Both the position numbers and the translations under genes were made by a program. DNA of 64,000 nt from Actinomycetota bacterium (GTDB lineage Bacteria; Actinomycetota; Thermoleophilia; BMS3ABIN01): assembly GCA_023382335.1 (NCBI GenBank), contig JAMCPM010000011.1, positions 315,229 through 379,228 on the forward strand, given 5' to 3'. The notes beneath the pieces are model-generated. The model was not told the DNA's origin. It saw only the letters and a program-made list of their open reading frames with translations, and made no database searches. Shown piece by piece: positions 5,831 through 61,137 of the stretch; the first letter of the stretch is position 1, and each line of letters starts with the position of its first letter.

Positions 5831-6244
5831 CTAGTTAGAATCTTTTAGGGATAAAATTTCGGGAACTTTTAGCTTGTCCCTCATCTTTATATATTCATCA
5901 TAAGATAGAGGGCCGTGTAGTTGATCTCTGCCGATGTCTGCAATCCAGTAATTTAACTCATTTCCCGTTCTTAGGGAATCTTCGCGCCTAAGATTGCAAT
6001 TCTGGTTGGGTTTTTGGCTGGCAATTATAAATGCATCATCATAAACATATTCTTTCACAGTACAAGGAATCAGCTTTCCATTTCTCGAGTACAACTCATG
6101 AAATATATATGTATTAGCATCTCCGTCCCAAACATATGTGTATTTACCGCTGAGTGATGTATAGCTTTCGTTAGCATTGCAGCCGACGATGAATACAGCA
6201 ACGAAAAAAAACACTGCGACGAGTGTAAACTTAATCATTTGCAC
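5831..6244 (-). CDS. DUF3997-like lipoprotein, probable immunity protein
   Basis: A 137-residue lipoprotein: hydrophobic signal ending in a lipobox (FIVGC), then a small domain with W-D-G...Y-V-Y-D-D-A-F-I-I-A and N-Y-W-I-A-D...L-H-G-P-L-S-Y-D-E. This resembles DUF3997 proteins, which are often found after polymorphic toxins. It directly follows the toxin tip at 6278-6523 on the same strand, which fits a toxin/immunity pair. The start could be the GTG at 6244 or the ATG at 6238. The immunity role is inferred from context. Confidence 0.6.
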   Translation of the reverse strand: MQMIKFTLVAVFFFVAVFIVGCNANESYTSLSGKYTYVWDGDANTYIFHELYSRNGKLIPCTVKEYVYDDAFIIASQKPNQNCNLRREDSLRTGNELNYWIADIGRDQLHGPLSYDEYIKMRDKLKVPEILSLKDSN

Positions 6245-6277
6245 ATGAATCCGTTCTCAATAATCGAAGTTAGTCGA

Positions 6278-6523
6278 TTAGAATCTATCTTTTATGGAAC
6301 ACCCGCCACCAATATCCGTGTATCCATCAAAATGAATACTATAGCCTGTTCCTACACCTGCGTGTGCTTGACCAACTAGCGTTTCTGCATCTCGAAATAT
6401 ATTTCCAACAGTTAAGTCGTTGTCACTCTTCATGTCAAAATCGAAATCGTTTGGCTCAATTGTTGCCTTGTTATTTCCTTGGTAAATGACATTCAAAGTT
6501 CCATAAACTGCGGCGTCATCCAT
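6278..6523 (-). pseudogene. Rhs/polymorphic toxin C-terminal tip, displaced frame
   Basis: An 81-residue ORF overlapping the end of the Rhs repeat gene in a different frame. It contains the E-P-N-D-F-D-F-D-M-K-S and G-V-G-T-G-Y-S-I-H-F-D-G-Y pattern seen at the extreme C-terminus of many Rhs and wall-associated polymorphic toxins. It has no start signal of its own. The frame extends upstream of its ATG through an I-H-G-N stretch, a common Rhs tip junction, so it was originally fused to an Rhs core and is now separated by a frameshift or cassette exchange. The adjacent lipoprotein at 5831 is the likely immunity partner. Confidence 0.5.
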
Positions 6524-7337
6524 GTTTCCATGAATAGCTCGCGAAATTACTGCTCCAGTCGTCTGTAACCCTGGTCAAGCCGTTCATGAAGTTGTGTTCG
6601 TAGGAAACACTATTGTTGGCGCCAGTGCCATATGCCGCCTTTGTAACATTGCCGGCATTATCGTAGGTGTAGCTAACGTAATTTACCGTTGAGTTCGGGT
6701 TCGAAACCGAAAGTAGGCGCCCGTCATTATCATACGAATAGATCACGGCCGAGGATGCGCCTGAATCGGTGTCCGTGCGGGAGGTAATCCTTCCCATCTT
6801 GTCATACATAAATGATTGAGTAATCTGGATAGGAATGGTTCTGGGATCGTTCCTTTGGCTTAGGCGGCCGAGATCGTCATAGGCAAAGCGAATCTGGTTC
6901 CCCAGGGGATCCGCAAAGTTGTCCGGTAGACCCAGGACGTTATAGGAGAACTTGTACGGCGAGTAGCCGGCGCCGACTCTTGAGGCAAGAGAGCCGGCGG
7001 CGCTATAAGTATTGTTTACGGAGTTATCCCTCTGGTCGGTCGTGTTTGTAATGCCGGCGGCATTTGAAAGGTCCACCGTCATATAACCGCGCTGGTCGAC
7101 TGCCCCGGAGATCGAGAGGTTATCCTTGGTGATCGAGCGGATAGTGCTGGAAAGGTTGCCCAGCCGGTCAAAAGTAGCGCAGACGCCTGAATTATCATAG
7201 ACGCTTCTTGTTTGATTACCGGTGGGGTCAATTGTCTGAAGTTTATTTCCAAGCTCATCATAGACAATTTTGGTTGCGCTAATGGTCGGCTTTCTTTGGA
7301 TTTGTGGCTTGGAAGATCGAAGAACATGGACTTGCAT
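6516..7337 (-). pseudogene. Rhs/YD-repeat protein fragment
   Basis: About 270 residues made of YD repeats, for example Y-D-E-L-G-N-K-L, Y-D-D-L-G-R-L, Y-D-K-M-G-R-I, Y-D-N-D-G-R-L and Y-D-N-A-G-N-V, each followed by T-x-x-x-x-D/N. Complete Rhs proteins exceed 1,000 residues with an N-terminal delivery region and a conserved core; here both are absent and the frame stops at SWKHG. No good ribosome binding site precedes the ATG, and the first 20 residues do not look like a signal peptide. This is a remnant of a cell-surface or secreted polymorphic toxin. Confidence 0.7.
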
Positions 7338-18281: not shown

Positions 18282-19418
18282 CCGATAGCCTCTGGCGGGG
18301 TCAAGGCATGCCAGCCCCTGCAGCTCGAGCGATATCAGGGCGGCCGCGGCGCGGGATCCATCGAGGCCGGCACGGGCGGCGAGAACGTCCTGATGCATGG
18401 GCTGGCTGCCCAGCGCCTCAAGCAGGCTTCTCTCGTCCTCGGTCAAATCGGTGGCTTCGGGTGCTTGATGCAGTTCAAGCAGCAACTGACGCTGCTGCTC
18501 CAGGCCCAGGCTCTCCAGGACGTCTTCGGCGCTTGCGGCAATGCCGGCGCCCCACTGGATGAGCCGGTGCGGGCCGGCTGAAAGATCCGAGAAGATGCTG
18601 CCGGGCACGGCGAATACGTCGCGCCCTTCCTCGAGACAGAAATCGGCTGTGATCAGAGCGCCGCTCTTTCCCCTGGCCTCAACCACGATGACTGCCTGCG
18701 ACAGTCCCGCCATTATGCGATTGCGCGCCGGGAATCTCCAGGGCATGGCCCGGGCGCCGGGAGGATACTCCGACACGATCAATCCACGCCCGATCAGTGT
18801 CGAGTAGAGCTTGCGGTTGACCGCCGGGTAGATGATGTCCGGACCGCATCCCAGGACGGCGAGGCTGCTGCCGTTTTGCGAGAGGGCGCCGCGATGCGCC
18901 GCTGCGTCGATGCCGATGGCCATGCCACTGATGACGCAGACGCCAGCAGACGCCAGCCCCGAGGCTATGGTAAAGGCTGCGTCCATGCCGTAGGTCGAGG
19001 CCTTGCGGGCGCCGACTATGGCAACTCGCGGCTGCCTGACGAAATCGGCCAGCCGGTTTTCTTTACCTTTCATGAAAAGTGCCGGTGGCGGATCGTGGAT
19101 CCGGGCCAGGAATTCCGGATAGCAATTCTCTCCCAATGTGACAAGTGTGATGCCCTGCCGCTCCAGCTGCGCAAATTTCGCGGCGGCGTCAAACGAAGCG
19201 CGAAAGGCGGCAAGCCTTGGAATCGCCTTCGAGGGAAGGCCGAGCAGGGCCGCCAGCTCTTGTTCACCGAGCCGCCAGAGCTCGACGGGCGTCATATTCC
19301 CCGTAGGAACGCGCAGCGGCCAGCCGTGCTCCGCCAGGAAGCACGAGAGAGCCAGAGCCTGGGCGCGTTCCTCATCAGTGACTGGTTTGCCGGAGGTGAG
19401 TCCTTCCCTAGGTTCCAT
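18270..19418 (-). CDS. dprA: DNA-protecting protein DprA (Smf)
   Basis: A 382-residue protein with the DprA Rossmann-like core: A-R-K-A-S-T-Y-G, S-G-M-A-I-G-I-D-A-A-A-H, G-C-G-P-D-I-I-Y-P, S-E-Y-P-P-G, F-P-A-R-N-R-I-M-A-G-L and S-G-A-L-I-T-A. A helix-hairpin-helix-like N-terminus precedes it and a C-terminal winged-helix domain follows (about 320-380). DprA loads RecA on single-stranded DNA taken up during transformation. Its start overlaps the end of comM by 11 bases. Confidence 0.93.
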   Translation of the reverse strand: MEPREGLTSGKPVTDEERAQALALSCFLAEHGWPLRVPTGNMTPVELWRLGEQELAALLGLPSKAIPRLAAFRASFDAAAKFAQLERQGITLVTLGENCYPEFLARIHDPPPALFMKGKENRLADFVRQPRVAIVGARKASTYGMDAAFTIASGLASAGVCVISGMAIGIDAAAHRGALSQNGSSLAVLGCGPDIIYPAVNRKLYSTLIGRGLIVSEYPPGARAMPWRFPARNRIMAGLSQAVIVVEARGKSGALITADFCLEEGRDVFAVPGSIFSDLSAGPHRLIQWGAGIAASAEDVLESLGLEQQRQLLLELHQAPEATDLTEDERSLLEALGSQPMHQDVLAARAGLDGSRAAAALISLELQGLACLDPARGYRRGR

Positions 19419-20967
19419 CCCACCCCTTCCGGTCGATGCTGCGGTAACTGACGGCCTCGGCGAGATGCGCGGCGTCGATGACTTCGGCGGCGTCGAGGTC
19501 GGCGATGGTGCGGGCGACTTTGAGGATGCGATGGTGGGCGCGGGCGCTCAGTCCCAGGCGGTCGATGGCGTTCTCGAGCAGCCGGGCGGCGGCGGGCTCG
19601 AGCCGGCAGAGGTCTTCAGCCCGGGAAGCGTCCATGCCGGCGTTGCAGAATATCCCCGAATCGCCGAGGCGGGCCGACTGGCGCCGGCGGGCCTCCCCCA
19701 CCCGCGCCGCCACGGCAGCCGAGGGCTCGCGCGGACCGCTTCTCAGCATCTCCTGCTTATCGAGGCCGGGAACCTCTACGGCCACATCGATGCGGTCCAG
19801 CAGCGGTCCGCTGACACGCCCGCGATAGGCAGCCACCCGGTGAGGCGCGCAGCTGCACGAGCGCCGCGAGTCGCCCAGATGTCCGCAGGGACAGGGATTC
19901 ATCGAGGCTACCAGCATGAAGCTGGCCGGATAGACCACACGTGCCAGGGCGCGGGCGATGGCGACGCTGCCGTCTTCCATCGGCTGACGCAGGGTCTCCA
20001 GAGCCACGCGCGAGAACTCGGGCAGCTCGTCGAGGAAAAGGACGCCCAGATGTGAGAGGCTGATCTCTCCCGGACGGGGTGAGCCGCCGCCGCCGGCCAG
20101 CCCGACATGCGAGATGGTATGATGCGGCGAGCGGAAGGGCCTGCGCGTTATAAGCGGCATGCCTTCGCTCAGCAGGCCGGCGACACTATATATGCGGGTG
20201 ATCTCGATGGCCTCGCGGATGCCCAGCGGTGGCAGTATCGAGGGCAGGCGCCGCGCCAGCATCGTCTTGCCCGATCCCGGCGGACCGATCATGAGCAGGT
20301 TGTGGCCGCCGGCGGCGCAGACCTCGAGGGCCCGCCGGGCGTGTTCCTGTCCCTTGACGTCGGCCAGATCCAGCCGTCCGCCGTCGCCGGCCGCGAGCAT
20401 GGCGGCGGCATCGACGCTGGCCGGCTCGATGACCGTCTTCCCTTCAAGGAATCCAACAGCCTGCTTCAGGGTCTCGACGGCAATGACCTCGACACCTTCG
20501 ACCAGCGCCGCCTCGCCGGCGTTTTCCGCCGGCAGCAGGATGCCGCGGAACCCCAGCCGGCGCGCGCCCTCAGCCATGGACAGGGCGCCGTTGATGCGGC
20601 GGACGCTGCCGTCAAGCGAGAGTTCGCCGGCGGCGCTGTAGGCAAGGATGCGGCCGGCCGCATCCTTGCTTTGCATCTGACCGGAAGCTGCCAGCAGCGA
20701 CAGGGCGATGGGAAGATCGAAGGCCGGCCCTTCCTTGCGAACATCTGCCGGAGCAAGATTGACGGTGATGCGCCTTAAGGGGAAATCGTAACCGGAGTTA
20801 GTCATGCCGGCGCGGACCCGTTCCCTGGATTCGCGCACGGCGGCGTCGGGAAGGCCGACGATGCTGAAAGCGGGCAGGCCCCAGCCGAGATCGGTCTCGA
20901 CCTCCACGGGGCAGGCCTCCATACCCAGAACCGCGTGACTGTGCAACCTGGCAAGCATCCGCATCAC
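19408..20967 (-). CDS. comM: ComM/YifB-type AAA+ ATPase
   Basis: A 519-residue protein of the Mg-chelatase-like ComM family. It has an N-terminal Lon-protease-like S5 fold (1-170), an AAA+ domain with Walker A G-P-P-G-S-G-K-T-M-L (about 228-237), Walker B L-F-L-D-E-L-P-E-F, a sensor region with a C-P-C-G-H...C-S-C zinc-like cluster, and a C-terminal Mg-chelatase lid. ComM is a hexameric helicase that aids branch migration during natural transformation. With dprA it forms a DNA-uptake processing pair. Confidence 0.92.
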   Translation of the reverse strand: MMRMLARLHSHAVLGMEACPVEVETDLGWGLPAFSIVGLPDAAVRESRERVRAGMTNSGYDFPLRRITVNLAPADVRKEGPAFDLPIALSLLAASGQMQSKDAAGRILAYSAAGELSLDGSVRRINGALSMAEGARRLGFRGILLPAENAGEAALVEGVEVIAVETLKQAVGFLEGKTVIEPASVDAAAMLAAGDGGRLDLADVKGQEHARRALEVCAAGGHNLLMIGPPGSGKTMLARRLPSILPPLGIREAIEITRIYSVAGLLSEGMPLITRRPFRSPHHTISHVGLAGGGGSPRPGEISLSHLGVLFLDELPEFSRVALETLRQPMEDGSVAIARALARVVYPASFMLVASMNPCPCGHLGDSRRSCSCAPHRVAAYRGRVSGPLLDRIDVAVEVPGLDKQEMLRSGPREPSAAVAARVGEARRRQSARLGDSGIFCNAGMDASRAEDLCRLEPAAARLLENAIDRLGLSARAHHRILKVARTIADLDAAEVIDAAHLAEAVSYRSIDRKGWDGT

Positions 20968-21081
20968 TCCTTCGGAGGAGGATGCTTCCGCACGGGAGGT
21001 CAGTGTGGGGGCGTCAGAATATCAAAAGCGTGAGGCTTTGGCAAAAGGAGGATGATCGTGAAGTGCTGGGCTGTGGCGGCG

Positions 21082-21216
21082 TCAGGCGGCCGGCTGTGGC
21101 GGAACGGTGACGCTGCACTGCCAGTCGGGACAGCCGCAAGTGATGGCGCGGATGTTCTCGATCTTCTTGATCCGAGGTTTCTCGTAGATCTTTTTAGCCT
21201 TGGTCTGCGTGCTCAA
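21082..21216 (-). CDS. 44-residue RiPP-precursor-like peptide
   Basis: A small gene with AAGGGGG just before its TTG start. The N-terminal half is basic and holds Y11-E-K-P-R-I16, the YxxPxL/I-type leader motif bound by RiPP recognition elements in lasso and related peptides, followed by K-K-I-E-N-I. The C-terminal half is a short cysteine-rich core (T26-C27-G-C29-P-D-W-Q-C34) and a Pro/Val tail. The leader-core split is characteristic of ribosomally made, modified peptides. No maturase gene is adjacent. It lies between yraN and comM. A small zinc-binding peptide is the alternative. Confidence 0.5.
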   Translation of the reverse strand: MSTQTKAKKIYEKPRIKKIENIRAITCGCPDWQCSVTVPPQPAA

Positions 21217-21330
21217 TTTGCCCCCTTCTCTTCTTTCCGCTCGTTTGGTCAATTGCGGAGTCTAGCACATCGATCATGCACGAGATACCCACCGGGGGTA
21301 TTTTTCACTAACCCGCGGGAAACATAAAGA

Positions 21331-21822
21331 TCAGCGGAAGGCATCCTGTATATGCTCGATTCCCGGTATGTTTTTGACATCAGCAGGCCCGATTCCTGCG
21401 GAAAGGCCGAAATTCTTGCCCCCGGGCCGGGGGTCCCGGCCTTCCATCTTCACCGAGATCACATCGAACCGAAAGGAGCATTCCCGCAAGCTGCGGTCCC
21501 GCTGATGCGCAGCCAGCCACATCTGGGCCATGCGCCGGATCTGATCCTGCTTGCGGGCGACGACCGCTTCAAATGGCTGGCCGTGACTGCGTCCGAGGCG
21601 GGTCTTTACCTCGATGAAAGCGATAAGGCTGCCGCGGCGGGCGATGATGTCGATCTCGCCGTAGCGGCTGCGGTAATTGGTCTCGAGGATCGAATAGCCC
21701 TGTTGTTCGAGGTGCCGGCAGGCGAGCGCCTCACCGGCATCTCCATGGGCCTTGCGCTCGTCGGCGCCATGGAGATGCCGGTCGTTGTTTCCATCGGCCT
21801 GGCGGTCGCCGTTTTGCTTCAA
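21331..21822 (-). CDS. YraN/UPF0102 nuclease-like protein
   Basis: A 163-residue protein whose core is the UPF0102 restriction-endonuclease-like fold: G-E-A-L-A-C-R-H-L, Y-R-S-R-Y-G-E-I-D-I-I-A-R and F-I-E-V-K-T-R. The D and E-x-K residues are the PD-(D/E)xK active-site set. The first 25 residues, rich in D, H and N, are an extra low-complexity leader, and the true start may be inside. It overlaps rnhB by four bases. The family is widely conserved next to rnhB and comM, with a proposed role in DNA processing that remains unproven. Confidence 0.88.
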   Translation of the reverse strand: MKQNGDRQADGNNDRHLHGADERKAHGDAGEALACRHLEQQGYSILETNYRSRYGEIDIIARRGSLIAFIEVKTRLGRSHGQPFEAVVARKQDQIRRMAQMWLAAHQRDRSLRECSFRFDVISVKMEGRDPRPGGKNFGLSAGIGPADVKNIPGIEHIQDAFR

Positions 21823-56727: not shown

Positions 56728-58074
56728 CTAGGGATACGTGTAAGAGGTGCCGGAGCCGTCGCTGGCGCTCACGGTCATGCTCGACCGCCAGCTTCCGGTG
56801 TTTTCAGGTATCTGATACCTGAGAGTGAAGACTGCCGAAGACAGCGGCTCGATATCCGCCGCCGGTGAAGGCAGCGCCGTCAACAGGGTAACACCGTCGG
56901 TATTCGTGTTTCCTGTCAACCTGGCGCCGAAGGCCTTGGTCGTGCCGTTGTTAGCCAGCGTCCAGTCGACAGTCAGTTCCCTGAAGACGTAATCCGCGTA
57001 CGAAGCCCAGTGAGCCGAGGGCACTTTGAGAGCGAGCGCCGGCTTGGCGATCGCCGTGGTCCAGCCGTTGGCCGTTGTCCATGGCAGGTTGTCCTGGCCG
57101 CCGCTCAAGATGTATGCCGCGTCGCAAAACACGTCACCGTTGAGGTTGTTGCAACCAGTGGCGGGCGAGTCGTAATCGCTCCAGTAGTTGCCGCCGTTAG
57201 GCGCGTCCATGTTGAAGCTGTTGCCGCTGCTGACGCCGGTCACCACAGCCTGAGTAGGATTGTTGACAAAGTTGTTGCGATGTATGGTATTGCCGGCCGA
57301 ATCCATGATGCTGATTCCATCGACGATATTGCTTTCGATCCAGTTCTCGAAAATCGAGTTGCCGTTCGCGCCTGACTGCAGCAGGATCCCATCTCCCCAG
57401 GCTGCCTCCGCCAGCCCGTTGGCGCTGATGGTGTTGCCGGTGATGACGTTGTTGGAGGAGCCGATCGCTTCGATGCCGCAGTTGTAATTGGCGACCAGGT
57501 TGTTGCCCAGCAGCACGTTGCCGTCGGAGCCTTCAAGCCTGATGCCGTCTCCGGCGAAGGGGCCGCCCGGCACACTCACGGGGAGGCCGCTGAAGAGAGC
57601 ATTGACGTACGACACCATGTTGCCACTGGAGCCCTGCAGATAGACGCCGTAGAACATCCCCTGGATATTCAGATTCTCGATGGTGACACCGGTGCGGTTG
57701 GCCACATTGACGCCGATGACGCCGGCGGTGGCGAAAGGGCCGATGGTGTGCGCGGCTCCGTCGAGAGTCACGCCGTCGCTGTCGATTTCGATGCCTACGG
57801 CGTAGTCATCGACCAGAATATCGCGGGAAAGGGTGCATTTGTGCGCGCCGGCATTCCAGACGCCGACCGCGGGACAATCGCCGCCGGTCGAATCATCGAT
57901 TATATGGATAGTCGGATCGGCCACCGCCAGTGAACCAAGGGCGATGCCGGACGTGAACTGTACGGGAACCAGGAATACCAGCAGAGAAAAAGCGAGGACC
58001 GCGAGCATGACGCCCACACGAAAAGAAGACTGCCTGCCGGCAAATGTGCCGGGATACGCTCTTGGACCCTTCAC
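56728..58074 (-). CDS. secreted right-handed beta-helix protein
   Basis: A 448-residue exported protein: a signal-anchor-like N-terminus, a NosD-like parallel beta-helix of about 220 residues (repeated G-V-T-I-E-N-L-N-I, N-V-I-T-G-N-T-I, N-S-I-F-E-N-W and N-N-F-V-N-N turns), then a linker and a C-terminal domain (about 355-448) ending Y-T-Y-P. The C-terminal domain is shared with the protein at 58283. A T-x-G-G-D-C-P...G-V-W...C-T-L pattern precedes the helix in both. It is probably a surface or matrix protein. Confidence 0.85.
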   Translation of the reverse strand: MKGPRAYPGTFAGRQSSFRVGVMLAVLAFSLLVFLVPVQFTSGIALGSLAVADPTIHIIDDSTGGDCPAVGVWNAGAHKCTLSRDILVDDYAVGIEIDSDGVTLDGAAHTIGPFATAGVIGVNVANRTGVTIENLNIQGMFYGVYLQGSSGNMVSYVNALFSGLPVSVPGGPFAGDGIRLEGSDGNVLLGNNLVANYNCGIEAIGSSNNVITGNTISANGLAEAAWGDGILLQSGANGNSIFENWIESNIVDGISIMDSAGNTIHRNNFVNNPTQAVVTGVSSGNSFNMDAPNGGNYWSDYDSPATGCNNLNGDVFCDAAYILSGGQDNLPWTTANGWTTAIAKPALALKVPSAHWASYADYVFRELTVDWTLANNGTTKAFGARLTGNTNTDGVTLLTALPSPAADIEPLSSAVFTLRYQIPENTGSWRSSMTVSASDGSGTSYTYP

Positions 58075-58164
58075 CCAATACCCCTTCCAAACCCGTTAAT
58101 GGATGACCTGCCCGGGGCGCGAACGTGACTACCGGATTCGCCCGCCCGATGAACAAGTTATGTA

Positions 58165-58193
58165 ACTTTATTGCGAAGGCGCATAAATGTCAA
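58165..58193 (-). promoter_or_regulatory. promoter of the 56728 beta-helix gene
   Basis: Minus strand TTGACA (58188-58193), 17-base spacer, TAAAGT (58165-58170). Same boxes and spacing as at 61109-61137. Confidence 0.7.
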
Positions 58194-58227
58194 CAGTTTA
58201 AGTCAACTTTATACTCTGCCAAGCAGC

Positions 58228-58291
58228 GCGCAGACAGCGCTACAGATACTGTTGGCAGCGCTACGAATACGCGCTGGCAGCGTTACGGATA
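58228..58291. repeat. 21-22-bp tandem repeat across the beta-helix gene stop
   Basis: Three degenerate copies (about 58228-58248, 58249-58269, 58270-58291). Reading the minus strand each begins TAT-CNG/TCG-TAR then CGCTG; the first copy supplies the real stop TAA and the other two carry TAG at the same place. Confidence 0.7.
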
Positions 58292-61060
58292 CGTGTAGGC
58301 GTTGCCGGCGCCGTCCAGGGCGCTGGCATAAAGAGTCGATCTCCAACTGCCTACGCCGCTCGGCACACTGTATTTGAGCGTGAGCGATGCTGAGGAACCG
58401 GATGCGATGTCTCCGGCCGGGACGGGCAGCGGCGTGGTCATGGTAACGCCGTTGCTGTTGATGCTGGCGGTGATCTGCACCGCGTAGGCGATGTTCGCCC
58501 CGGCATTGGCAAGGGACCAGTCTACTGTAAGAGTATGCGCAAGGTAATCGGCATATGAAGCCCATCTGGGATGAGGCAAGCTGAGGCTCAGCGACGGTTT
58601 GCCGGAAGACAGCGGCGGCGACCCCCCGCTCCATCCGTTTCTGGCTGTCCAGGGAAGATGATCGGCGCCGCCGTAGACGGCCAGGGCTGCGTCACAGAAA
58701 TAATCTCCGTCCGTATTGATGCATCCCTCCGGTGGCGTGTCGTAATCACTCCAGTAATTGCCGCCGGTGGGAGACGGCATGTCCAGGGAGTTGCCGCTTC
58801 CCCCGGTCATGAACGCCTGGGTCGTGTTGCCCTCGAAGTTGTTGTGATAGATGTAGTTATCGCTCGATGCGGAAAGATACAGGCCGTAATTGTTGCCGGT
58901 GATGGTGTTGCCGGTGATGATGTTGTGGCTGGCGGCCTGTAGATAGATGCCGTAGCCGAAATTCCTGATGGTCAGGTTCCTGACCGTGACATTTGATTTA
59001 ACCTGCAGGGACCAGCCCATGGTGAATGCATCAGCCCCCGAGATCGTATGGCCGTTTCCATCAAGGGTGATTCCGTTATCAACAATGGATATGCCGTTAT
59101 TGGTGAAGTTCAGATCGGTGGTAAGTGTGCAGGTCTTGCTGTACTGATCCCAGACACCGATGGCGGTGCAGTCGCCGCCGGTGACGTTGTTGCGGATGTA
59201 GCGTGTCGGCGAAACCGGCGGTGAGCTGGTGTCGACCGTGAAGGAACCGCTGGCGCCGCCGTGATTCCCAGCCAGGTCGCCGGCCTGGGCGGTTATCGAA
59301 TGGCTGCCATTTGCCAGCCCGTAGACGCCGCAGGCCGCGCTGGCCGCGGTTATCGAGCAGCCGGAGAGCCGGCCGCCATCTACGTAGACAGCGACGCTGG
59401 CAAGGTCGATCCCGGAACCGGCGCCATCGGTGAAATCAGCATATACGACCGTCGAAGCCGTGTTGATTGTGCCAGTGGGCAGGATATTGCTGATCACGGG
59501 AGCGATGCTGTCGACAAAGTCGAAAGACCCGCTGATGGGGCTGGAATTGCCGGCGCCGTCCGATACCGAGCCGCTGATAACATGCGGACCCGTGGCAAGT
59601 CCGGAAACGCCGCAGCTGACTCCCGAAGCGTCCGCGCTGCAGGCGGGGATCCTGACGCCGTCGAGATAGACGCTCACTGAAGCCGTGTCGATGCCGCTGC
59701 CGGCGTCGGAGAATACAGCCGAAACGGTCTGGGAGCTACTGGCGACCGTGCCGGATGGCTGCACCGAGCTGACGGTGGGCACAGTCTTGTCCACGGTGAA
59801 GGAACCCGAGCCGGAACCGTGATTGCCGGAAATGTCATCTACATAAACCGCGATCGTGTGGCTGCCGTCGGCAAGGCCGGATGCCGAACAGCTGACTGCC
59901 GCCGCCGAGCCTGTGCAACCGGCCAGCCTGGCGCCGTCGAGATATACGGCGGCCGTGGCGCTGGCGATGCCCGAGCCGTCGCCGTCGCTGAAGTAGGCGC
60001 TGATGCCGGCGGAGCCCGAATCGATCATGCCGGATGGCTGGATGCCGCTTACCACCGGCGCCAGGTTGTCAGTAAAAGTGAACGCGCCGCTGAAAGTGCT
60101 GGTATTGCCGCGATTATCCGCGACCGAACCGCTGATCGAGTGAGCTCCGAGCGCCATTCCGTGGACAGCGCAGCCGGTGCTCTCCTGTGTGGCGGCGCAA
60201 CCGCCCAGCAGATTTCCATCGAGATAGACGGCAACTGAAGCCAGGTTGATATTGCTGCCGGTATCCCGGTAATAGACCTTGACGGTCGCGGAACCTGAGT
60301 TGATAGTGCCGGCGGGCTCGACTGAAAGGATCTCCGGCGGCGCCGAGTCAGGCGGATGCACGAGGTCCCAGCCGCCGGCTGAGGTGTAAGCCTGGATATC
60401 CTGGCCGCCGGTAAAGGCATAGGCGGCGTCACAGAAGGAATCGCCGTTGTTGTCGCTGCAACCCTCGCCAGGGGTATCAAAACTGCTCCAGTAGTTGCCT
60501 CCGGCCGTGTCTTTGCTGAAGACATTTCCGGAGCCGCCGCTGACGGTGGCCTGCGTGGCGTTGTTGACAAAATTATTGTTATAAATGGAGCTGGCGGTGG
60601 AGATGCTGACACTGATGCCGGTAGTGTTGTTTTCGAGAGTGTTGCCGGTGATCGTGGTGTTCTTCGAGGCCTGCACCAGGATGCCGGTGCCGAAATTCCG
60701 TATCGTCAGATTCCTGATGGTGACGCCGGTGCGAATGGACATGGCGCCGCCGGTGGTAAAGCTGCCGGTGTCGGTGATGAAGTGGCCGCCGCCGTCGAGA
60801 GTGACGCCGTCGCTGCTGATGATGATGCCGTTGCTGCCGGTGAAGGTCAGATCAGAGGTCAGCGTGCAGGTCTTGCTGTACTGGTCCCAGATCCCGATCG
60901 AGGAACAGTCCCCGCCGGTGCCGCTTGTGGAGATGTATTTTGTGGAGGTGCCGGCGGCTGGAGCCATGCTCACAGCCAGCAGACTGATAAAGACTATGAT
61001 GGAAAACGGGATGAGCAGTCTCGTACAGAACCTGCCACCCGTCCAGGCTAATTGTTTCAT
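58283..61060 (-). CDS. large secreted beta-helix protein with Ig-like repeats
   Basis: A 925-residue protein: signal peptide, a first NosD-like beta-helix (about 35-230), four Ig-like repeats of about 85 residues (240-610), a second beta-helix (about 625-820), and the shared C-terminal domain ending Y-T-Y-P. Each Ig-like repeat has the pattern S-V-x-V-Y-L-D-G, then two cysteines about 8-10 residues apart (e.g. A-C-S-A-D-A-S-G-V-S-C-G-V) and G-S-H-x-I. The Cys pairs likely form a disulfide per repeat. Role probably adhesion or matrix. Confidence 0.88.
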   Translation of the reverse strand: MKQLAWTGGRFCTRLLIPFSIIVFISLLAVSMAPAAGTSTKYISTSGTGGDCSSIGIWDQYSKTCTLTSDLTFTGSNGIIISSDGVTLDGGGHFITDTGSFTTGGAMSIRTGVTIRNLTIRNFGTGILVQASKNTTITGNTLENNTTGISVSISTASSIYNNNFVNNATQATVSGGSGNVFSKDTAGGNYWSSFDTPGEGCSDNNGDSFCDAAYAFTGGQDIQAYTSAGGWDLVHPPDSAPPEILSVEPAGTINSGSATVKVYYRDTGSNINLASVAVYLDGNLLGGCAATQESTGCAVHGMALGAHSISGSVADNRGNTSTFSGAFTFTDNLAPVVSGIQPSGMIDSGSAGISAYFSDGDGSGIASATAAVYLDGARLAGCTGSAAAVSCSASGLADGSHTIAVYVDDISGNHGSGSGSFTVDKTVPTVSSVQPSGTVASSSQTVSAVFSDAGSGIDTASVSVYLDGVRIPACSADASGVSCGVSGLATGPHVISGSVSDGAGNSSPISGSFDFVDSIAPVISNILPTGTINTASTVVYADFTDGAGSGIDLASVAVYVDGGRLSGCSITAASAACGVYGLANGSHSITAQAGDLAGNHGGASGSFTVDTSSPPVSPTRYIRNNVTGGDCTAIGVWDQYSKTCTLTTDLNFTNNGISIVDNGITLDGNGHTISGADAFTMGWSLQVKSNVTVRNLTIRNFGYGIYLQAASHNIITGNTITGNNYGLYLSASSDNYIYHNNFEGNTTQAFMTGGSGNSLDMPSPTGGNYWSDYDTPPEGCINTDGDYFCDAALAVYGGADHLPWTARNGWSGGSPPLSSGKPSLSLSLPHPRWASYADYLAHTLTVDWSLANAGANIAYAVQITASINSNGVTMTTPLPVPAGDIASGSSASLTLKYSVPSGVGSWRSTLYASALDGAGNAYTYP

Positions 61061-61108
61061 TGCCCCCTCTTGCCAGCTTCTGGGTAAGCCGAAAAAAACA
61101 CTTTCGAA

Positions 61109-61137
61109 ACTTTACGTAATTGATTACTGATTGTCAA
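61109..61137 (-). promoter_or_regulatory. promoter of the 58283 beta-helix gene
   Basis: Minus strand TTGACA (61132-61137), 17-base spacer, TAAAGT (61109-61114). AGAGGGGG precedes the ATG. Confidence 0.7.

Follow-up and report, generated by a model that had tools for sequence, protein, structure and literature searches.

The peptide gene between yraN and comM

The window, i.e., the whole stretch of DNA that was analysed, covers 64,000 nucleotides of an actinobacterial genome. Between yraN on the upstream side and comM on the downstream side (Table 1), translation of the minus strand from the TTG at position 21,216 to position 21,082, TGA included, gives the 44-residue peptide LSTQTKAKKIYEKPRIKKIENIRAITCGCPDWQCSVTVPPQPAA. 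The length of the frame, the YxxPxI motif (Y11-P14-I16) and the three cysteines (C27, C29 and C34) were all as described in an earlier sequence-only reading of this DNA, to which the strand is now added.

Table 1. Location of the features discussed in the text. Positions are those of the window unless a contig or locus is named.
Feature	Position	Strand	Remarks
comM/yifB, Mg chelatase-like AAA ATPase, downstream neighbour	19408..20967	-	TIGR00368, 611 bits
Promoter-like site of comM, TTGCCA-17-TATTCT	21016..21044	-	between the peptide gene and comM
Precursor peptide gene	21082..21216	-	44 codons + stop, TTG start; family member
Predicted core, residues 28-44, GCPDWQCSVTVPPQPAA	21085..21135	-	alignment A2; inferred boundaries
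WQCS motif	21112..21123	-	present in the cores of both classes (I and II); its C and S do not vary in alignments A2 and A4
Predicted leader, residues 1-27, ending T26-C27	21136..21216	-	alignments and analogy with lasso precursors
YxxPxI leader motif, Y11-I16	21169..21186	-	sequence and alignment
Purine-rich, Shine-Dalgarno-like stretch AGAAGGGGG	21221..21229	-	4 nt before the TTG
yraN (UPF0102), upstream neighbour	21331..21822	-	TIGR00252 / PF02021
NosD-like beta-helix protein with the order-specific domain at its C-terminus	56731..58095	-	no peptide adjoining
Second NosD-like protein, same C-terminal domain at its end	58286..61111	-	no peptide adjoining
Operon: HprK-related kinase, lasso-type PqqD, lasso B2 protease, DUF2079 membrane protein	contig C8, 60686-64389		
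Class II precursors	L143-L148, L150-L155, L159, L160; own copy of the window's genome, L011:9851-10093		

By analogy with lasso precursors, cleavage of the leader is expected one residue past the conserved threonine (PMC10368454). The YxxPxI motif would be the binding site of a PqqD/RRE protein, and Ser35 of the WQCS motif is a candidate phosphorylation site in view of the kinase described below. All the residues invariant in the family alignment (P14, T26, C34 and S35) were kept in the window copy, together with the near-invariant Y11, N21, C29 and W32. The pair C27-G28 was found in no other copy: the other class I cores have Phe-Glu or a close variant at this place, and the conserved F-E ahead of C29 is lost here. 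Conservation of the three cysteines therefore held for C34, which was invariant, and nearly so for C29, and failed for C27. The YxxPxI leader was conserved across the family, so that the reading as a RiPP-type precursor is supported by the leader and, in part, by the cysteines.

Both yraN and comM flanked the site in the 14 other loci checked. The peptide gene was intact there in three genomes: that of the window, G003 of the same genus (FECPEWQCSVVVPPPPA) and G017 of another genus, in which the copy (FECPDWQCSVAVPGQPEG) follows a gene whose protein has the shared C-terminal domain described below. It was not detected at the comM locus in 13 of the 17 genomes with comM; one of these 13 loci (L114) runs into a contig end. 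In G007, the nearest relative (87% identity over the comM segment), only a remnant was present (L158:2712-2837): an internal deletion has removed the leader, leaving the ribosome-site region that corresponds to AGAAGGGGG and the core remnant YQSWHCSGTVPPPPAA. Compared with the G003 orthologue, 17 of 22 synonymous and 16 of 83 nonsynonymous sites were changed in the window copy, and the differences at the first, second and third codon positions numbered 6, 7 and 20, respectively. The synonymous-site pattern, which the sequence-only reading had named as one possible refutation, thus indicates that the gene was under coding constraint for most of its divergence from G003 (pN 0.19, pS 0.77, pN/pS 0.25).

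The precursor family and its secreted partners

The peptide had been called an orphan, a term that does not hold in the sense of unique, since 11 copies are encoded in the window's genome (ten at E<1e-7 in the same-genome search). The search for homologues that had been proposed gave ten paralogues elsewhere in this genome, the best at E=1.8e-11, and a family extending over the whole order, so that the ORF is more than a chance frame. In whole-genome searches, the peptides were present in every one of the 19 genomes of the order, with 4–12 copies each, and absent from all 280 other genomes of the class. When about 85,000 species genomes were scanned, 42 peptide loci were found; all are in records of uncultured bacteria, which for the most part have Thermoleophilia, Gaiellales or Actinomycetes in their titles. 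The family is confined to one group of largely uncultured actinobacteria. Neither Pfam nor NCBIfam holds a model for the peptide, and no literature was found for BMS3Abin01 and Thermoleophilia combined. As judged by sequence comparison, the ORF of the window belongs, as a diverged member, to this multi-copy, order-specific family of putative RiPP precursors.

The aligned copies of the window's genome read YEKPxLxKHxNxKxITFECPAWQCSVTVPPPPAx. Over the family, the leader pattern Y..P.L....N....T and the WxCS motif were nearly constant and the tail after WxCS was variable. Most copies have a class I core, FECPxWQCSVTVPPPPA, with the tail VPPPPAP. The class II precursors share the leader, the threonine and nearly always WxCS, and end with tails rich in Asp, His, Ser or Gly (for example WTCSIGFDDDDDHGHDD and WNCSLGDCGSDSSSDSDSSS); these tails look metal-binding. 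The penultimate leader residue was Thr in 60 of the 61 distinct parsed sequences and Ser in the remaining one, and the Thr was invariant in alignments A2 and A4. The Cys-Ser of WxCS was also invariant in both alignments, which carry this claim because the pattern used for the 61-sequence parse itself demanded CS.

The fetched loci contained 56 peptide ORFs, 51 of them with enough flank for a count of the neighbours. In 36 of the 51 cases (about 70%), the peptide adjoined a protein carrying a common C-terminal domain (motif W(G/A)SYADY). The placement script assigned 32 peptides to a position directly downstream and three directly upstream of the domain protein; in the 36th case, L045, the peptide overlaps the start of the domain-protein gene. 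Inspected by eye, the partner proteins were otherwise diverse (rhodanese-like, multicopper oxidase-like, fibronectin-like and others). The domain was found in all 19 genomes of the order, with 11 to at least 15 scored matches each, and in a single genome from the rest of the class. This single match outside the order (G104:C202:9022-9345) lies in a frame of 801 residues, the same length as a frame on contig C15 of the window's genome, and the contig is possibly misbinned. The domain is predicted with high confidence to form an Ig-like sandwich. The fold search returned generic Ig-like matches only (best match 8b5l chain v, E=3.8e-4, TM-score 0.57), which give no information on its function. 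Two NosD-like proteins ending in this domain are located in tandem in the window itself (56,731–61,111).

The window copy has no adjoining domain partner. A partnerless peptide was also present beside hemC in nine loci (L014, L021, L022, L024, L042, L049, L051, L058 and L060), and three loci had one lying between fusA and a nifU-like gene; both positions were more stable than the yraN–comM position. Since the hemC-side peptide holds its place in nine genome loci, some orphan copies have been conserved for a long time. A second HprK-like kinase gene was visible near some peptide/partner pairs (L067:16772-17887; also L036, L044, L052 and L056). Between them, L016 has a lipoprotein-like protein of 202 residues (6137-6745), the end of which, ITVPPAP, echoes the peptide tail VTVPPPPAP.

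Candidate maturation genes and expected product

There was no PqqD-like gene on the contig of the window, and the PqqD matches were all located on other contigs. This agrees with the earlier statement that no maturation gene is near and bears out the suggestion that RRE-containing genes might lie elsewhere. Maturation by enzymes acting in trans, which had been offered as one option, is supported by a single HprK-PqqD-B2 operon on contig C8. Its PqqD scored 67.8 bits against PF05402, above the Pfam cut-off and below that of NF033536, and its B2 protease, the only one above cut-off in the genome, scored 45.7 bits against NF033537 (cut-off 33). B2 was found in 16 of the 19 genomes of the order, mostly with the same gene order. 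Within the order, B2 retains its Cys and His, HprK its P-loop and DD, and PqqD most of its sequence. An orthologue of the PqqD was present in 17 of the 19 genomes (69–100% identity), the two others being the least complete (78% and 69%), and nothing above 39% identity was found elsewhere in the class. This PqqD shares its order-specific distribution with the peptides. We infer the link between the peptides and the C8 operon from this shared distribution and from motif logic, not from proximity.

In genome G014, HprK, PqqD and the peptides were present and B2 was not found, although the assembly is 92% complete. The next gene after HprK-PqqD encodes a 402-residue protein identified as an NTP_transf_5 nucleotidyltransferase, and the same arrangement, with a 402-residue protein, was observed in G010. 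The window's genome has one NTP_transf_5 protein (PF14907), 20 kb from the C8 operon and outside it, surrounded by glycosyltransferases and other polysaccharide-type genes (as judged by eye). No dedicated exporter was identified, and no MsbA-like exporter was seen in the listed neighbourhood.

Several features of lasso pathways were found, namely the YxxPx[L/V/I] leader, the penultimate threonine and PqqD (B1) with B2 in trans on C8. No macrolactam cyclase was located beside the operon. Three full-length asparagine synthase-like proteins (PF00733) are encoded in the window's genome, none adjoining the operon. The two covered by the lasso cyclase scan scored 265 and 214 against the NF033535 cut-off of 525, and both exceeded the cut-off for asparagine synthase. 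The third protein starts with CGICG, like glutamine-dependent AsnB. In the core after T-x, (E/G)CPxWQCSV, positions 7–9 correspond to C, S and V, without Asp or Glu. With no lasso cyclase recognised and no acceptor Asp/Glu in the core, the product is probably linear, and the reading as a lasso peptide was set aside on these two grounds.

A separate RiPP cluster was located on contig C6 of the same genome (L066:9353-13264). It consists of a set like that of the linear polyphosphorylated peptides (LPPs, see below) plus a radical SAM enzyme: a PqqD, a SPASM-like radical SAM protein, an HprK-like protein, an archaeal-type signal-peptidase-like protein and two precursors of the YVEPKIERVPLIPEEAVLSNCKCVAPQVSGPPQGWCSGEFQISCSTVGS type. 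A radical SAM gene elsewhere in the genome, which the sequence-only reading had proposed to look for, therefore exists, and its close relatives were found in five of the 19 genomes of the order.

Proposed pathway, alternatives and relation to known systems

We propose, as the probable explanation of the whole, that the peptides are order-specific RiPP precursors matured in trans to a linear phosphopeptide with secreted partners. In this model, the stand-alone lasso-type PqqD would bind the YxxP leader and hand it to the HprK-like kinase, which would phosphorylate a core serine, the best candidate being the invariant Ser of WxCS. The B2 cysteine protease would then cut after T-x, freeing a linear product some 17 residues long, which the NTP_transf_5 protein may decorate further. 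For the LPP and Bsf pathways, phosphorylation of a core Ser by an HprK-like kinase is described, together with a discrete RRE (PMC13381572, PMC10368454). A point against the model is that the candidate Ser is at core position 8 here, and the Ser of the known HprK substrates cited at position 3. The grounds for this route are the distribution of the genes and the logic of the motifs. The site of action of the mature peptides is probably the cell surface, together with the secreted proteins that have the order-specific Ig-like domain at their C-terminus; we put forward both the modification and the surface role as hypotheses. A further step, docking or covalent coupling of the mature (phospho)peptides to the Ig-like domain of dozens of secreted proteins, is an unlikely addition. 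If true, it would amount to a RiPP-based system of surface display or sorting, in which orphan copies, that of the window among them, would serve partners in trans.

The frequent pairing could also mean that the peptides are not RiPPs and are small unmodified partners of the domain proteins, for example docking strands. The 36 adjoining copies among 51, the equally order-wide distribution of the domain and its predicted Ig-like fold are in favour of this view, which we nevertheless consider improbable: the peptide has no apparent export signal, its YxxP...T leader is of the kind recognised by lasso-type PqqD/B2, with a PqqD of the same distribution, and the conserved copies next to hemC and fusA are partnerless. 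It is very unlikely that the family is matured by the C6 radical SAM cluster, for instance through thioethers formed at the cysteines. This cluster is in the same genome and has a PqqD, and its own two precursors have YVEP-type leaders, but their core is different, and relatives of the radical SAM protein (at least 57% identity) in five of 19 genomes contrast with peptides in all 19; on this distribution it was rejected. As for the suggestion of a role in DNA uptake through comM, the peptide gene is adjacent to comM and in the same direction. However, comM has its own promoter-like site, and a -10-like element was present at a similar distance from comM in 15 of the 16 loci read (the last was masked), with or without the peptide, which is missing at 13 of 17 loci. 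The paralogues adjoin unrelated genes, e.g., hemC and fusA. The suggestion is thus unsupported, and promoter and distribution together leave it almost no credence.

A different question is raised by the window copy itself, which may be decaying, as it has no domain partner, two intact positional orthologues only, and a leader-deleted remnant in its nearest relative. That the family is real and this copy a relic under relaxed selection, with no consequential product, is a serious possibility that we place somewhat short of an even chance, and it is compatible with the proposed explanation for the whole family. The TTG start, the lost F-E and the many comM loci without a copy point in the same direction, whereas the ORF is intact with every invariant and all the near-invariant residues, and its pN/pS, though mostly a measure of older constraint, is low against the G003 orthologue. 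The window copy would either give a slightly altered product or be on its way to loss. It is an atypical, perhaps fading, member of the family, and its position beside comM looks incidental.

The gene set, with trans-acting maturation as proposed above, is the phosphorylated-lasso/LPP set minus the cyclase. The LPPs were described in 2026 from the lpp cluster of Paenibacillus alginolyticus, as restricted to Bacillota and patchy (PMC13381572). Common to both systems are the YxxP leader, a discrete RRE, the HprK-like kinase, the NTP transferase, the lack of a macrolactam cyclase, a conserved N-terminal part with variable C-termini, and a location among glycosyltransferase/capsule genes. The leader motif, Y..P.L..H.N....TF here, agrees only in part with YxxPxVLxHQxIxFETxxS of the LPPs. 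The leader protease is a lasso B2 here and the signal-peptidase-like LppS in the LPPs, such a gene being found here only in the C6 cluster. The precursors number about ten per genome and are dispersed, compared to one to three inside the LPP cluster. They differ also by the WxCS core, by their order-wide presence in one actinobacterial order, and by their frequent pairing with secreted proteins carrying the C-terminal domain. With the phosphorylated lasso peptides (paeninodin; Bsf of Bradymonas, PMC10368454), the family shares a YxxPxL-type leader, B1/PqqD, B2, the HprK-like kinase and the NTP transferase. The penultimate leader Thr is a general rule of lasso peptides (Ile in Bsf) (PMC10368454). 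Unlike in paeninodin and Bsf, no cyclase was recognised here and Asp/Glu are missing at core positions 7–9, so that no lasso ring is expected. Many precursors served in trans by one enzyme set are also known from the prochlorosins of picocyanobacteria (PMC10783134); these are lanthipeptides with Nif11-type leaders and ProcM, and have no gene in common with the peptides described here (PMC10783134).

Our preferred reading of the family is a novel variation on cyclase-free phosphorylated lasso/LPP-like RiPPs, with maturation in trans. It suggests that the lasso and LPP pathways have a relative outside the Bacillota that is linked to a kinase and has no cyclase. The distribution of the family is housekeeping-like, order-wide with about ten dispersed precursors per genome, and nearly all such precursors would escape a RiPP search seeded with a local gene cluster. 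The authors of the LPP work state that what such peptides do is unknown (PMC13381572); the domain common to many secreted proteins would be the first testable handle on their role.
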